DNA from: Pseudanabaenaceae cyanobacterium SKYG29
GTDB lineage: Bacteria; Cyanobacteriota; Cyanobacteriia; Pseudanabaenales; Pseudanabaenaceae
Direction of reading: 5' to 3'
Assembly (NCBI GenBank): GCA_025055675.1
Contig: JANWWT010000002.1
Span: 62,001 to 126,000, forward strand
Length of the DNA stretch: 64,000 bases
A model generated the notes under the pieces. It did not search any database. It was not told the origin of the DNA and saw nothing but the letters and a program-made list of their open reading frames with translations. Made by a program: the position numbers and the translations under genes. Below, in pieces: positions 23,800 to 30,099 of this stretch; positions within the stretch are counted from its first letter, which is position 1; every line of letters starts with the position of its first letter.

Positions 23800-25677
23800 T
23801 CAAGGGGAAGTTTTCCAGAGCAATAAACCCATCGCCAATAGCAACCCCACCAAAATTGTCAGGGCGTACTGCTGCGATCGTCCCGTCACAGTGTATTTTA
23901 GGGTTTCCCCCGTAAACACAGAGGCTATGCCCAAAAAGTTGACTAAGCCATCCACTACAAACCGATCGAGCCAGCCTACTAAGCGCGACCCCTGACCCAC
24001 AACAAACACGGCTGTACTGCGATAGATTGCCTGTACATAAAGGTCATTTGCCAACAAGTTTTGGATTGATTTCCAGACCAAGGAGACTGGCGGGGGCGGC
24101 AAAGTTACTGTAGCACCAGGGGCATAGATATGCCAGACGTAAATTTTGCCACTCCAGAGCAACCCGATCGTGCCTGAGGTTACGAGCAAAGCAATTTCCA
24201 ACCAGGGGTTATGTAGTTGAGGGGGGTAGAGTCCCCACTGCCAGACCAAGATAGGGGCGAGGAGATTCACAATAGTCAAGGACACCGTGGGCACAGCCGC
24301 TAACCAGAGCACCTCAGGGACACGGCGTGTTTTGGGCTGGGGCTTGCCGAGGAATACCAAACTAAACACCCGCATCAAGCCAAAGGCAGTAATCCCATTT
24401 ACTGCTAAACCCACCGCCACTAACACAGGGGCACTGAGCCACAAGCTGTCCACATAATTTAACAGTGTCCAAAATGTCCCTAGGGGTAGGAGACCCACGG
24501 CAGACAAACTGCCAACAGCAAACCCCATCGCTGTAGCGGGCATGCGCAGACCAATACCCCCCATTTCTGTCAAATCCTGGGTCATGGTGGTCATCATAAT
24601 CCCCCCCGTACTCGTAAACAGGAGGGCTTTTGCCACAGCATGGGTCAGGAGAAATGCCAATGCCACTTCCGTATGTTCCGTCCCCACCGCAATAAACACT
24701 AAACCCAAATGGGCACTGGTAAGGTGGGACAACGCCCGTTTAATATCAATTTGGGCGATCGACACCAAAGCTGCCCCCACCGCCGTAATCGTCCCTAAAA
24801 CTAAGAGAGCATCCAGCGCGATCGGGCTAATGGCTAGGACGGGGGTCAACTTAATCAGGACATAGGCTCCACAAGCCACCACCACTGAGTTACGCAACAC
24901 AGAAGCGGGGTTAGGACCCTCCATCGCCTCATCTAGCCATAGGTGTAAAGGGAACTGGGCACATTTACCCACGGGACCTGCGATCAAAGCAATACCCAAC
25001 AAATTTGCCCATAGCGGATGGGATTCCGCCCACAGCACCGTATCAGGGGAAGCTGCCCACGCTGCTAGGTCAGAAAAATGCAAACTATCTGTCAAGGTGG
25101 AAAGCCCAATCAAACCCATGAGTAGAACTAAATCCCCTACCCGCTTTGTCCAAAAGGCATCCCGTGCTGCCGTTACCACTAAAGGCTGAGCATACCAAAA
25201 CCCTACCAGCAGATAGGTAGAGAGGGTGAGCATCTCCAGCAGCCCATAGCTGAGGAAAAAGGAATCACTCATGGCAATCCCTGTCATCGCCGACTCGAAA
25301 AATCCCATCAAGGCATAAAAGCGTGCCAGGGACCAGTCCATCTCCAGGGACGCTAGACCATAGAGCTGGGATAGAAAGCTGATCAACCCAATCAGAAAAG
25401 CTGCCCCCGTCGTCGTGGGCGAAATATCCAAAGTCAGAGTCAAACTAAAATCGCCAATTTCCAGCCAGCGATACTCGATCGGATTCGGCGGTGCCTGCCC
25501 CAGGAAAATAACCAAGCTATGGGCAAGGGCCAAGAAAGTCGCCACTAAATTCAAATAGGCAGCGGGTCTCTGGCCCGTTCTCTGCACGAACCCCAACGAC
25601 CAGGGTAAAGTTGCCACTGCCCCCAGCAGCCCATACAAAGGGATCAACCACACCCAGTCCCGCAAGATATCCACCAT
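23800..25677 (-). CDS. ndhF4: NDH-1 subunit NdhF4 (CO2-uptake complex)
   Basis: A proton-pumping antiporter-like subunit of NDH-1 with about 14 spans and 625 residues. The core has MSDSFFLSYGLLEMLTLSTY, the LHLWLDEAMEGPNPASVLRNS block and HAVAKALLFTS, typical of NdhF3/NdhF4 of the CO2-hydrating complexes instead of respiratory NdhF1. I favour NdhF4 because the gene is divergent from ccmK, the arrangement known from Nostoc-type genomes. NdhF4 normally works with NdhD4 and CupB; neither gene follows here, since the next gene is the convergent radical-SAM gene 12 bases away. Confidence 0.8.
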   Translation of the reverse strand: MVDILRDWVWLIPLYGLLGAVATLPWSLGFVQRTGQRPAAYLNLVATFLALAHSLVIFLGQAPPNPIEYRWLEIGDFSLTLTLDISPTTTGAAFLIGLISFLSQLYGLASLEMDWSLARFYALMGFFESAMTGIAMSDSFFLSYGLLEMLTLSTYLLVGFWYAQPLVVTAARDAFWTKRVGDLVLLMGLIGLSTLTDSLHFSDLAAWAASPDTVLWAESHPLWANLLGIALIAGPVGKCAQFPLHLWLDEAMEGPNPASVLRNSVVVACGAYVLIKLTPVLAISPIALDALLVLGTITAVGAALVSIAQIDIKRALSHLTSAHLGLVFIAVGTEHTEVALAFLLTHAVAKALLFTSTGGIMMTTMTQDLTEMGGIGLRMPATAMGFAVGSLSAVGLLPLGTFWTLLNYVDSLWLSAPVLVAVGLAVNGITAFGLMRVFSLVFLGKPQPKTRRVPEVLWLAAVPTVSLTIVNLLAPILVWQWGLYPPQLHNPWLEIALLVTSGTIGLLWSGKIYVWHIYAPGATVTLPPPPVSLVWKSIQNLLANDLYVQAIYRSTAVFVVGQGSRLVGWLDRFVVDGLVNFLGIASVFTGETLKYTVTGRSQQYALTILVGLLLAMGLLLWKTSP

Positions 25678-25981: not shown

Positions 25982-26290
25982 ATGCCTATTGCCGTCGGAA
26001 TGATTGAAACCAGAGGTTTCCCTGCTGTAGTGGAGGCAGCGGATGCCATGGTGAAAGCTGCGCGAGTGACCCTCGTGGGCTACGAGAAAATTGGCAGCGG
26101 TCGTGTCACAGTAATTGTCAGGGGTGATGTCTCGGAGGTACAGGCATCGATCGCGGCGGGAGTAGAGTCGGCGCGGCGAGTAAATGGGGGAGAAGTTCTC
26201 TCTACCCATATTATTGCCCGTCCCCACGAAAACTTGGAGTACGTATTGCCCATTCGCTATACCAAAGAAGTGGAGCAATTTTCCTTTTAG
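25982..26290 (+). CDS. ccmK2: Carboxysome shell hexamer protein CcmK2
   Basis: A single bacterial-microcompartment domain of 102 residues beginning [19 protein letters not shown]. The pore-region KIGSGRV and the edge-lysine segment DAMVKAARV are intact. It forms the hexagonal facets of the beta-carboxysome shell and admits bicarbonate. The short C terminus (EVEQFSF) matches CcmK2, while the next gene has the longer CcmK1 tail. It is the first gene of the operon and has no strong ribosome site; its leader is AT-rich. Confidence 0.95.
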
Positions 26291-26395: not shown

Positions 26396-26737
26396 ATGGC
26401 AATTGCAGTTGGTATGATTGAAACTTTGGGCTTTCCTGCTGTAGTGGAAGCTGCCGATGCGATGGTAAAAGCGGCGCGGGTGACGCTTGTAGGTTATGAG
26501 AAGATCGGGAGTGGGCGCGTCACCGTAATTGTGCGGGGGGATGTGTCAGAGGTACAAGCTTCTGTAGCAGCGGGGACAGAGTCAGTCAAGCGGGTGAATG
26601 GTGGTCAGGTGCTTTCTACTCACATCATTGCCCGTCCCCATGAAAACCTGGAGTATGTGTTGCCTATCCGTTATACCGAGGAAGTGGAGCAGTTCCGCGA
26701 CAATGTCAATGCTATTCGCCCCATGAACCGTCCGTAG
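26396..26737 (+). CDS. ccmK1: Carboxysome shell hexamer protein CcmK1
   Basis: A second bacterial-microcompartment-domain protein of 113 residues, starting [19 protein letters not shown] and nearly identical to CcmK2 over the domain. It has an extra C-terminal tail, [19 protein letters not shown], as in CcmK1 of Synechocystis. Shell hexamers of CcmK1 and CcmK2 assemble into the carboxysome facets. The AGGAGG ribosome site 6 bases upstream is much stronger than that of ccmK2. The ccmL ATG begins one base after its stop. Confidence 0.95.
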
Positions 26738-26738
26738 T

Positions 26739-27041
26739 ATGCGGATTGCCAAAGCGATCGGTACGGTGGTCAGTACCCAGAAAGAGCCTACCCTAGCGGG
26801 GACGAAGTTTCTCCTAGTGCAGTTTATCGATGAGAAGGGGGAACTTACCAATCACTACGAAGTGGCAGCAGACACTGTGGGGGCGGGGATCGAAGAGTGG
26901 GTCCTAGTCAGCCTCGGCAGTGGTGCCAGACAGATACGGGATGGGGAAAACCGCCCGATCGATGCGGCAGTGGTAGCAATCATTGACACAGTCACGATCG
27001 GCAATCAATTTCTTTACAACAAGCGCTTACAATCGCGGTAG
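26739..27041 (+). CDS. ccmL: Carboxysome vertex pentamer protein CcmL
   Basis: A CcmL/EutN-type protein of 100 residues, starting MRIAKAIGTVVSTQKEPTLA. The conserved KFLLVQFIDEKG, DTVGAGIEEWVLVSLGSGAR and DAAVVAIIDTV blocks are present. It forms pentamers that close the vertices of the icosahedral shell. It follows ccmK1 and ccmM starts 6 bases after its stop, so the operon is tightly packed. Confidence 0.96.
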   Translation: MRIAKAIGTVVSTQKEPTLAGTKFLLVQFIDEKGELTNHYEVAADTVGAGIEEWVLVSLGSGARQIRDGENRPIDAAVVAIIDTVTIGNQFLYNKRLQSR

Positions 27042-27047
27042 GAAGTT

Positions 27048-28889
27048 ATGACTATCACCATAGCGCCCCAAGCCCATGTCCATCCCCTCTCCCGTGTCAG
27101 TGGGGAGGTGCACATTGCCCAAGATGCGGTTTTAGCCCCAGGGGTAGTAATTCATTCCCAGGCAGGTACGCCCTTCTATATTGGCGGGGGGGCACGGCTG
27201 CAGGAGGGCACGATCGTGGGAGGGATAGCGCAAGGGCGCGTGCTGGGCAAGGACGGCAAGGAGTACGGTGTATGGATCGGGGCAAAGACTGTCCTGACCC
27301 ATTTTTGTTTAGTTTATGGACCCTGCTTCATTGGGGAAAACTGCTTCATAGGCTTTCGCTCCACTATTTTTAACAGCAGAATTGGCGATGGCTGTATTGT
27401 GATGATGCATGCTGTTATCCAGGATGTGGAGATTCCCCCAGGGAAGTATATTGCCAGCGGGTCAGTGATTACCACCCAACAGCAAGCCGACCATCTCCCC
27501 GATATTACCCCTACCGATCGGTTGTTAGCGGAGCAACTGGGGGGAATAGCAATGCCCAGAGTGACCACCCAACCAAGCATCGTTACTAATGGACAGCAAG
27601 AGAGTACAGATATGAAGGAAGGAATAGAGCTTGCTCCCCTGGTGCGGCAGTTACTAGCCCAAGGGCATCGGGTAGGGGCGGAGTATGCTGATACAAGGCG
27701 ATTTAGGACAAGTTCCTGGCAGAGCTGCGCCAATATTCATGCCACTGATGAGTACACCGTACTGCGGAACTTACAAGCCTGCCTAAAGGAACATGAAGGA
27801 GAATATGTGCGCCTCGTGGGGATTGACCCCAAATCGCGGCAAAGGGTGATGGAACAAATTATTCAACGTCCTGGCGAAACTCCTATCGTTGTCCCTACTG
27901 CCAATCCTAGCGGTACAACCACCGCTAAAGTAAGTGCAGCGCCCCCAGTAACTCCCCAAAATGGCAATGCCCCAGACTGGACAACCCAAGTCCGTCAACT
28001 CTTAGCGCAGGGCTACCGTATTGGCACAGAGCACGCGGACGAGCGCCGCTTCAGAACTAGTTCCTGGCATAGCTGCAAACCGATCGAAGCCACCAGTGAA
28101 AGTGGGGTAATTGCAGCCCTCAACGCCTGTTTAGCGGAGCATGCGGGAGAGTACGTGCGGCTATTTGGTATTGACCCCAAGAACAAAAAGCGGGTGGGGG
28201 AAATGATCATCCAACGTCCTGGACAAGTGGCAACTGCTCCCGTCAATACTGCTACGACAACCCAAGGAGCTGCCTCCCCTACTGTCCAACTCAACCCCGA
28301 TGCTGACCTTGCTACCCATGTACGTTCTCTTTTGAGCCAGGGCTATCGCATTGGCACAGAACATGCGGACGAACGTCGCTTCAGAACCAGTTCCTGGCAT
28401 AGCTGCAAACCGATCGAAGCTACCAGTGAAAGTGCCGTTATGGCAGCCCTCAATGCCTGTTTAGCGGAACACGCTGGGGAGTATGTGCGCATGTTTGGCA
28501 TTGACCCCAAGAACAAAAAGCGGGTAGGGGAAGTAATCATTCAGCGTCCCAATGGCAAAGCTCCTGGGCAGACGGCACCTGTCAGCAATGCAACTGTTGC
28601 TACAGCCAGCCCCAGCTACAACAATCTGCCACCCGAAGTAGTACAACATATCCGTCAGATCCTCAGTCAGGGCTACAAAGTCAGTGCTGAGTACGCTGAT
28701 GAAAGACGGTTCCGCACCAGTTCCTGGCAAAGTTGTCCGCCCATCCCCGGCAATACGGAAGGGGAAGTAGTGAGAGCCTTGGAACAACTCTTGAGAGAAC
28801 ACGCAGGGGACTACGTGCGCCTAATCGGTATGGATGGCAAGACCAAACGGCGTGTCCTAGAAACCATCGTGCAACGTCCTAAACGTTAG
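27048..28889 (+). CDS. ccmM: Carboxysome scaffold protein CcmM
   Basis: A 613-residue CcmM. Residues 1 to about 165 form a gamma-carbonic-anhydrase left-handed helix; four Rubisco-small-subunit-like modules follow at about 193-275, 312-391, 421-501 and 530-613, each with RRFRTSSW, joined by Pro/Thr/Ala linkers. The modules bind and cluster Rubisco. By comparison with the Thermosynechococcus domain, His75 is Gly58, His102 is kept as His85 and His107 is Tyr90, so zinc binding is doubtful. The Cys194/Cys200 disulfide is also absent. Modules 1-3 keep a cysteine pair (227/245, 343/361, 453/471); module 4 has one. ATG 27612 (Met189) could start a short CcmM form just before module 1. Confidence 0.95.
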
Positions 28890-28891
28890 TC

Positions 28892-29410
28892 ATGTACCTT
28901 GCTTCCCTCCAACCCCTCACCACAGCTTACACCTACGGCAATGTGGCAGTTGACCCAACAGCAGTGATTGCACCAGGTGTCCTGCTCCAGGCAGACGAGG
29001 GCTGTAGGATTACTATTGGGGCAGGGGTATGTGTAGGGATGGGAACGATTATCCATGCCCACAAAGGGGACATAACGATCGGGTCTGGGGCAAACCTAGG
29101 GGCAGCAGTACTAGTGGTAGGGAAAGTAGAAATTGGGCAGGGGAGCTGCATTGGCACAGGGGCAACGATCTACAACATCGACATTGGCGCAGGGCAAATA
29201 ATCCCCTCAGGGGCACTGATTACCCAGGAAACCCCTTCTCCCCCGTCGCAAGAAACTACAGCCCAAGAAGGTACGCCCCCTAGTGAACCTACTCCCACTG
29301 CCCAGATTGAAACAGAAGTACGCCAAGTGCAGCAGGGAGTCTCCTATGGACAGATGCAGCTAAATCGTCTGATGGTCAAAATCTTTCCCCATCGGCAGCC
29401 TAGTTCCTAA
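28892..29410 (+). CDS. ccmN: Carboxysome adaptor protein CcmN
   Basis: A 172-residue protein with an N-terminal hexapeptide-repeat helix (residues about 15-115, e.g. ITIGAGVCVGMGTIIHAH) and a Pro/Thr/Glu-rich linker. The C-terminal amphipathic encapsulation peptide reads SYGQMQLNRLMVKIFPHRQ. CcmN binds CcmM through its N-terminal domain and shell proteins through this peptide, linking core to shell. It starts 2 bases after ccmM. Its end overlaps the convergent ParA-like gene by 4 bases. No ccmO, rbcL or carbonic anhydrase gene follows. Confidence 0.93.
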   Translation: MYLASLQPLTTAYTYGNVAVDPTAVIAPGVLLQADEGCRITIGAGVCVGMGTIIHAHKGDITIGSGANLGAAVLVVGKVEIGQGSCIGTGATIYNIDIGAGQIIPSGALITQETPSPPSQETTAQEGTPPSEPTPTAQIETEVRQVQQGVSYGQMQLNRLMVKIFPHRQPSS

Positions 29411-30099
29411 CGCTTTTGCCAATCGCGTTCAATTTCTTCCGCTACCCGTCTGTAATCTGACTCTGCTTCCTTAGCATTCTTACCCCGCCATTGCAGGATC
29501 GATTTTCCCTCTAGGGCAGCCCGTTCGTGGGCTTTGTAGGCACGCACAAAGGCATGACAGGCGGGAATACCGACGGACATCAGTGTATTCTGGGCTTCTA
29601 GGGCTTCAGCAAGACTGCGGGGATCAACTCGAGTCAGTAACACTCTGTGGGCAACCCCAGCGGGCAAAACAGAAGATTTAACGGTTTCAATCAACGCCGC
29701 CAAGTCCATCGGCGCAGGGGGGGTCGGCAACAACAAATAGTGGGAGAGTTTAACTACCGTCGCTAAGGTGTGGGAGCCAAGGTTAGGGGGAGTATCAATC
29801 ACAAGTAGGTCATATTCCCTAGTGGTTGTTATGTCCTGCAGACGCTCCCGATCGGTTATTGCCACCAAATCAAAACCTATGTCTAATTCCGATCGTTTTA
29901 CCCACCAATGGGAAGAACGCTGGGGGTCAGTATCGACCAACAACACCCGTCTGGTTTCGCCAAAGATAGCTGCCAGATTGACTGACGTAGTAGTTTTTCC
30001 TACTCCTCCTTTACCGTTGACAATGGCTAAGATGTGCACAGATGTTAAGAGGGCAATGTAGAGTTTATTCAAAATTGTGGCACTAATCGTTACATCCAA
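29407..30099 (-). CDS. ParA-family ATPase
   Basis: A deviant Walker ATPase. The P-loop reads KGGVGKTTTSVNLA, the switch DTPPNLGSHTL and the Walker A' VDTDPQRSSHWWVKR are present. The frame from ATG 30099 gives 230 residues, but the family usually begins just before ILAIVNGKGG, so GTG 30039 (VHILAIV) is an equally good start with 210 residues. The gene has no ParB partner nearby. ParA-like McdA proteins position carboxysomes and are often encoded near carboxysome genes; because this one is directly beside ccmN, such a role is possible but the adjacent McdB is not seen. Confidence 0.85.
   Translation of the reverse strand: MDVTISATILNKLYIALLTSVHILAIVNGKGGVGKTTTSVNLAAIFGETRRVLLVDTDPQRSSHWWVKRSELDIGFDLVAITDRERLQDITTTREYDLLVIDTPPNLGSHTLATVVKLSHYLLLPTPPAPMDLAALIETVKSSVLPAGVAHRVLLTRVDPRSLAEALEAQNTLMSVGIPACHAFVRAYKAHERAALEGKSILQWRGKNAKEAESDYRRVAEEIERDWQKR

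Follow-up and report, generated by a model that had tools for sequence, protein, structure and literature searches.

The ccm cluster in the 64,000-nt stretch of DNA analysed here (the window) raises the question of how a β-carboxysome is supplied with CO2 when the N-terminal γCAL domain of its CcmM has lost most of the zinc site of a γ-carbonic anhydrase (γ-CA). The window belongs to a cyanobacterial genome (2.56 Mb, 97% complete) with one Rubisco large-subunit gene, and among named records the closest relatives found were 'Cyanobacteria bacterium M5B4' and an uncultured MAG of the Pseudanabaenaceae. The protein at the centre of the locus reaches 721 bits with the NCBIfam model for CcmM (cut-off 550) and has the CcmM layout, an N-terminal γCAL followed by Rubisco small-subunit-like (SSUL) repeats. 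Its gene stands in the order ccmK-ccmK-ccmL-ccmM-ccmN, with ccmL and ccmN recognised by profile match and the ccmK genes by inspection (Table 1). An internal Met (MKEG.ELAPLV, 27612 region, + strand), conserved in three members of the genus, lies ahead of the first SSUL repeat and could allow translation of a short, M35-type CcmM to begin within the gene. Immediately beyond ccmN, on the other strand (29407-30099, −), an ORF for a ParA-family ATPase with an intact GKGGVGKT motif is a candidate for McdA-like carboxysome positioning. Upstream of the cluster, also on the opposite strand (23800-25677, −), lies an NdhF3-family subunit of the NDH-1 complex (CO2-uptake type).

Table 1 Features of the locus; positions are those of the window unless contig positions are given
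Feature	Position	Strand	Basis or remark
ccmM, 613 aa (γCAL domain and four SSUL repeats)	27048..28889	+	ORF; Pfam RuBisCO_small x4 and hexapeptide repeats; NCBIfam CcmM
CcmM γCAL domain, residues 1-171	27048..27560	+	phmmer to 3KWD/3KWC/7O4Z; AlphaFold2 model; Foldseek
CcmM four SSUL repeats, approximate limits	27624..28886	+	Pfam PF00101, four stretches
His36-Ser37-Gln38-Ala39 codons, in place of Arg-Ala-Asp-Glu	27153..27164	+	phmmer alignment
Gly58 codon, where zinc ligand His75 would be	27219..27221	+	phmmer alignment; domain survey
His85 codon, sole zinc ligand retained (His102)	27300..27302	+	phmmer alignment; domain survey
Tyr90 codon, where zinc ligand His107 would be	27315..27317	+	phmmer alignment; domain survey
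CcaA-tail docking residue L66, retained; upstream of the other seven	27243-27245	+	7O54 contacts of PMC8580825 mapped on alignment
CcaA-tail docking residues F108, N109, R111, D126, E128, Q144, D148, all retained	27369..27491	+	7O54 contacts of PMC8580825 mapped on alignment
Residues 177-183, expected place of Cys194 and Cys200; no Cys	27576..27596	+	Sequence; motif survey
ccmL, shell vertex protein	26739..27041	+	PF03319, 106 bits
Two ccmK-type shell protein ORFs	25982-26290 and 26396-26737	+	ORFs; assigned by inspection
ccmN, adaptor to shell	28892..29410	+	NCBIfam CcmN, 128 bits (cut-off 100)
ccaA homologue, 236 aa	contig 272741-273448		Same contig, about 147 kb past window end

An earlier note on this DNA had proposed, by eye and at a constant offset of 17 residues, that zinc ligands His75, His102 and His107 (Thermosynechococcus elongatus CcmM numbering) are Gly58, His85 and Tyr90 in the window protein. 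The phmmer alignments bore this out: residues 5-167 align with T. elongatus CcmM (3KWD/3KWC) at an E-value of about 2e-60, and residues 5-164 with Synechococcus elongatus 7O4Z, both without a gap. The flanking motifs left no other register. In place of the three zinc-binding histidines of an active γ-CA, the window γCAL therefore reads G58/H85/Y90. The same note was right that the Cys194-Cys200 disulfide is missing; the C-terminal CxxxxxC pair of active CcmM γ-CAs is absent, and there is no Cys within residues 177-183 nor anywhere up to the first SSUL repeat. The loss of two ligands and the Cys pair was nevertheless an incomplete description of the erosion, since an Arg-Ala-Asp-Glu segment has changed as well. 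We take this segment to hold Arg59, Asp61 and Glu62 of Cam (register from the alignment). All three are replaced, by His36, Gln38 and Ala39, so that the Arg59 and Asp61 of an active γ-CA are gone; the equivalent of Cam Gln75 is retained as Gln52. More broadly, of the 58 positions at which at least 95% of the 187 intact domains agree, 10 are altered in all three members of the genus, including two zinc ligands and three positions of the Arg-Ala-Asp-Glu segment.

The structural alignment proposed in the earlier note was run with an AlphaFold2 model of residues 1-171 (pLDDT 86.6). In Foldseek, the model superposed on 7O4Z and 3KWD with an rmsd of 1.1 Å, and the γCAL fold is therefore predicted to be intact. 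The γCAL of S. elongatus PCC 7942 (7O4Z, 7O54; Zang et al. 2021, PMC8580825) has three zinc histidines, and its crystal contained a Ni2+ ion, whereas the window domain has lost two of the histidines together with the Arg/Asp/Glu segment. The T. elongatus BP-1 γ-CA (3KWC, 3KWD) is the same domain, 54% identical and ungapped; however, its three histidines, its activating Cys194-Cys200 disulfide and its setting in a strain without ccaA have no counterpart in the window CcmM.

If γCAL is inactive, another carbonic anhydrase must serve the carboxysome, as the earlier note had argued while adding that the absence of any such gene would make the case very interesting. That scenario is excluded: a Pfam search of the genome returned a single β-CA, encoded on the same contig, whose closest solved relative is Synechocystis PCC 6803 CcaA (5SWC, 264 bits). 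Searches of the genome for an α-CA, an iota-type CA and a further γ-CA found none. The CcaA homologue has the β-CA zinc ligands in place (Cys39, His98, Cys101), as well as Asp41-Arg43; it is shorter than the Synechocystis protein, with a short linker ahead of its docking tail. ccaA is followed by an ORF similar to the ferredoxin-thioredoxin reductase catalytic subunit (L001:2164-2526), which was not seen at any of the other ccaA loci, including that of the close relative G002.

The S. elongatus CcaA tail, GWLAPEQQQRIYRGNAS, binds γCAL through contacts that include Trp257, Gln262, Gln263, Arg265 and Tyr267 (PMC8580825). At its C-terminus, the CcaA homologue of the window genome carries WLPPEQQERIYRG, the γCAL-docking motif of S. 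elongatus; the full tail reads SWLPPEQQERIYRGSHSLTR, of which SWLPPEQQERIYRG corresponds to the γCAL-binding C2 peptide of PMC8580825 and carries the docking pattern W...PEQQxRIYRG. Equivalents of all five contact residues are present at equal spacing in the window genome and in both other sampled members of its genus, G002 and G001. Note that hits in the tail search depended on stringency, with 28/30 for a looser pattern and 3/30 for the stricter first one. On the CcmM side, all three genus members have the same docking partners as S. elongatus, L81, F123, N124, R126, D141, E143, Q159 and D163 in the numbering of that species (8/8). One of the two head-to-head contact residues, Arg164 in S. 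elongatus, is His149 in two of the three.

Given that CcaA is present and that neither its docking tail nor any of the eight docking-site residues has been lost, we conclude that the window CcmM is most likely a non-catalytic β-carboxysome scaffold, in which γCAL persists as a folded module for docking and assembly that recruits CcaA (probability roughly 0.9). The scaffold role suggested in the earlier note is thus by far the best reading of the ligand, pocket and Cys losses, the predicted fold and the retained docking site. We infer that γCAL is inactive, that it forms trimers and binds the CcaA tail, and that CcaA is active. With two of its three zinc ligands gone, along with the activating disulfide and the Arg/Asp/Glu residues of the pocket, γCAL would be permanently without catalysis, and its trimer would bind the C-terminal helix (WLPPEQQERIY) of a separate β-CA. 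Before shell closure, docked CcaA would enter the condensate in which the four SSUL repeats gather Rubisco, and it would then supply CO2 inside the shell. In S. elongatus, CcmM docks CcaA and concentrates it with Rubisco before the shell closes (PMC8580825). The window protein would be a clean natural example of an enzyme domain that has lost its chemistry and kept its scaffold role.

Alternatively, γCAL may be inactive while CcaA acts at some other place in the cell, with the carboxysome receiving its CO2 by a different route. There is a precedent in Microcoleus sp. IPPAS B-353, whose CcaA has been reported as a non-carboxysomal CA (PMC5472144). However, conservation across the genus of the docking tail and of every docking-site residue, together with the lack of a further CA of the classes searched for in the genome, makes this reading improbable.

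The substitutions are fixed in the sampled genus: G002 (92% identity) and G001 (76-77%) carry the same Gly/His/Tyr triplet (L032 and L033 are probably these same two genomes), and none of the three members differs at His36, His85 or Tyr90. Nei-Gojobori ω for the γCAL part was 0.076, 0.060 and 0.071 in the three genus pairs, with synonymous sites near saturation in two of them; in the closest pair, ω was 0.08 for the SSUL part and 0.04 for CcaA. The domain is maintained under strong purifying selection and is not decaying. The residue losses are beyond chance, because 187 of the 224 distinct γCAL domains surveyed retain all three histidines and the domain is under purifying selection.

Such constraint might be read as a sign that the vacated pocket has been repurposed. 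The genus-wide Gly58/His36/Tyr90 set (with Gln or His at position 38), held under strong purifying selection, could form a novel site for a metal or a ligand, with a regulatory role in the assembly of carboxysomes or the docking of CcaA; we regard this as a long shot. It is highly improbable that γCAL has remained a carbonic anhydrase by rearranging its metal site, for instance into one using His85, the new His36 (for Cam Arg59) and Tyr90 as ligands. The identity of these residues across the genus and the selection on γCAL would fit such an enzyme, but the scaffold role accounts for that selection, CcaA is present in the genome, and the acid-base residues and activating Cys pair have been lost along with the ligands. 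We give almost no credence to an assembly or alignment artefact, for which general caution toward metagenome assemblies is the only argument, since the alignment to two solved CcmM domains is ungapped and the same triplet occurs in two further genomes of the genus, which refutes sequencing error as its source.

The double ligand loss had been described as more radical than in inactive relatives; the survey does not support this. Outside the genus, the 224 domains include two-ligand losses reading YHQ (six rows), QHQ, NHQ and EHR (two each) and RHY (one), and three-ligand losses reading YYQ (two rows) and QCY (one), so the claim of uniqueness was rejected. These CcmM proteins, from family f13 and others, resemble that of the window in lacking two or three ligands and the Cys pair and in always occurring with CcaA, although their replacement residues differ from those of the window genus. 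A tree of 174 γCAL domains, built without the ligand columns, needed 10 changes between intact and eroded labels on the best topology and at least three on supported branches. On this best tree, the eroded domains of f13 and others are separate from the window genus, with weak support, and the losses look independent. Within the window's own family, genus g6 contributes two strongly diverged γCAL domains (L141 in G007 and L146 in G012; about 41-43% identity) that read gap-His-Cys in a poorly alignable stretch; CcaA in these two genomes is 65-66% identical to that of the window genome.

According to PMC9120777, PMC5472144 and the review PMC13249358, each of which cites Peña et al. 2010, CcmM is active in strains without CcaA and in most cases inactive in those that have it. 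In our 291-genome search, CcaA homologues were separated from other β-CAs by a clean gap (7.6e-49 or better vs 6.6e-22 or weaker). For 178 genomes, data on both proteins were available, taking the best CcmM copy per genome; one further genome had a partial domain only. At least two zinc ligands were lost in 21 of the 178, three of which lacked all three, and CcaA was present in 21/21 (Fisher p = 6e-4 against intact genomes, ignoring shared ancestry). With any ligand loss, the figure was 31/32 (p = 3e-4, likewise ignoring shared ancestry). Conversely, 48 of the 49 genomes without CcaA, several of them incomplete, retained all three histidines. A tree-based paired test of CcaA against ligand loss yielded three supported pairs only.

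The Cys pair was found at 47/48 testable loci of CcaA-less genomes; in CcaA-bearing genomes, it was found at 51/96 intact loci and at 2/35 eroded or partial ones. This distribution would be expected if, in the presence of CcaA, the activating disulfide were lost before the metal site, and suggests an order of events in which CcaA was acquired, the disulfide was lost, and the metal site was lost last. In the window's own family, the genera without CcaA (G003, G004, G008, G009, G010, G013) retain both triad and Cys pair and have the apparently active form of CcmM. The window genus is an extreme but recurrent case of the known division of labour between CcmM and CcaA. Earlier publications already pair inactive CcmM with CcaA; what is new is how far the erosion has gone and the wider scale of the survey. 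No statement was found in the open-licence literature on how far the metal site is dismantled in this genus, on the recurrence of such dismantling or on a disulfide-first pattern, which is no proof of novelty.

Several genomes in the survey stand apart. The only eroded CcmM in a genome without detected CcaA reads HHY and retains the Cys pair (L096 in G061, a fragmented assembly with 8% contamination). G016 and G095, both listed as 99% complete, have CcaA and no CcmM γCAL match at E <= 1e-20. Six genomes encode a second, short CcmM with γCAL and one SSUL repeat (about 309-337 aa; L150 in G037, L158 in G056, L111 in G176, L223 in G112, L207 in G205 and L225 in G217); a search of the window genome found none. 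The short copies retain the three zinc histidines, Arg/Asp/Gln and the CxxxxxC pair. Three of the six genomes (G037, G056 and G176) combine an intact short copy with a full-length CcmM that lacks a ligand, which suggests that the short form is a dedicated γ-CA paralogue.
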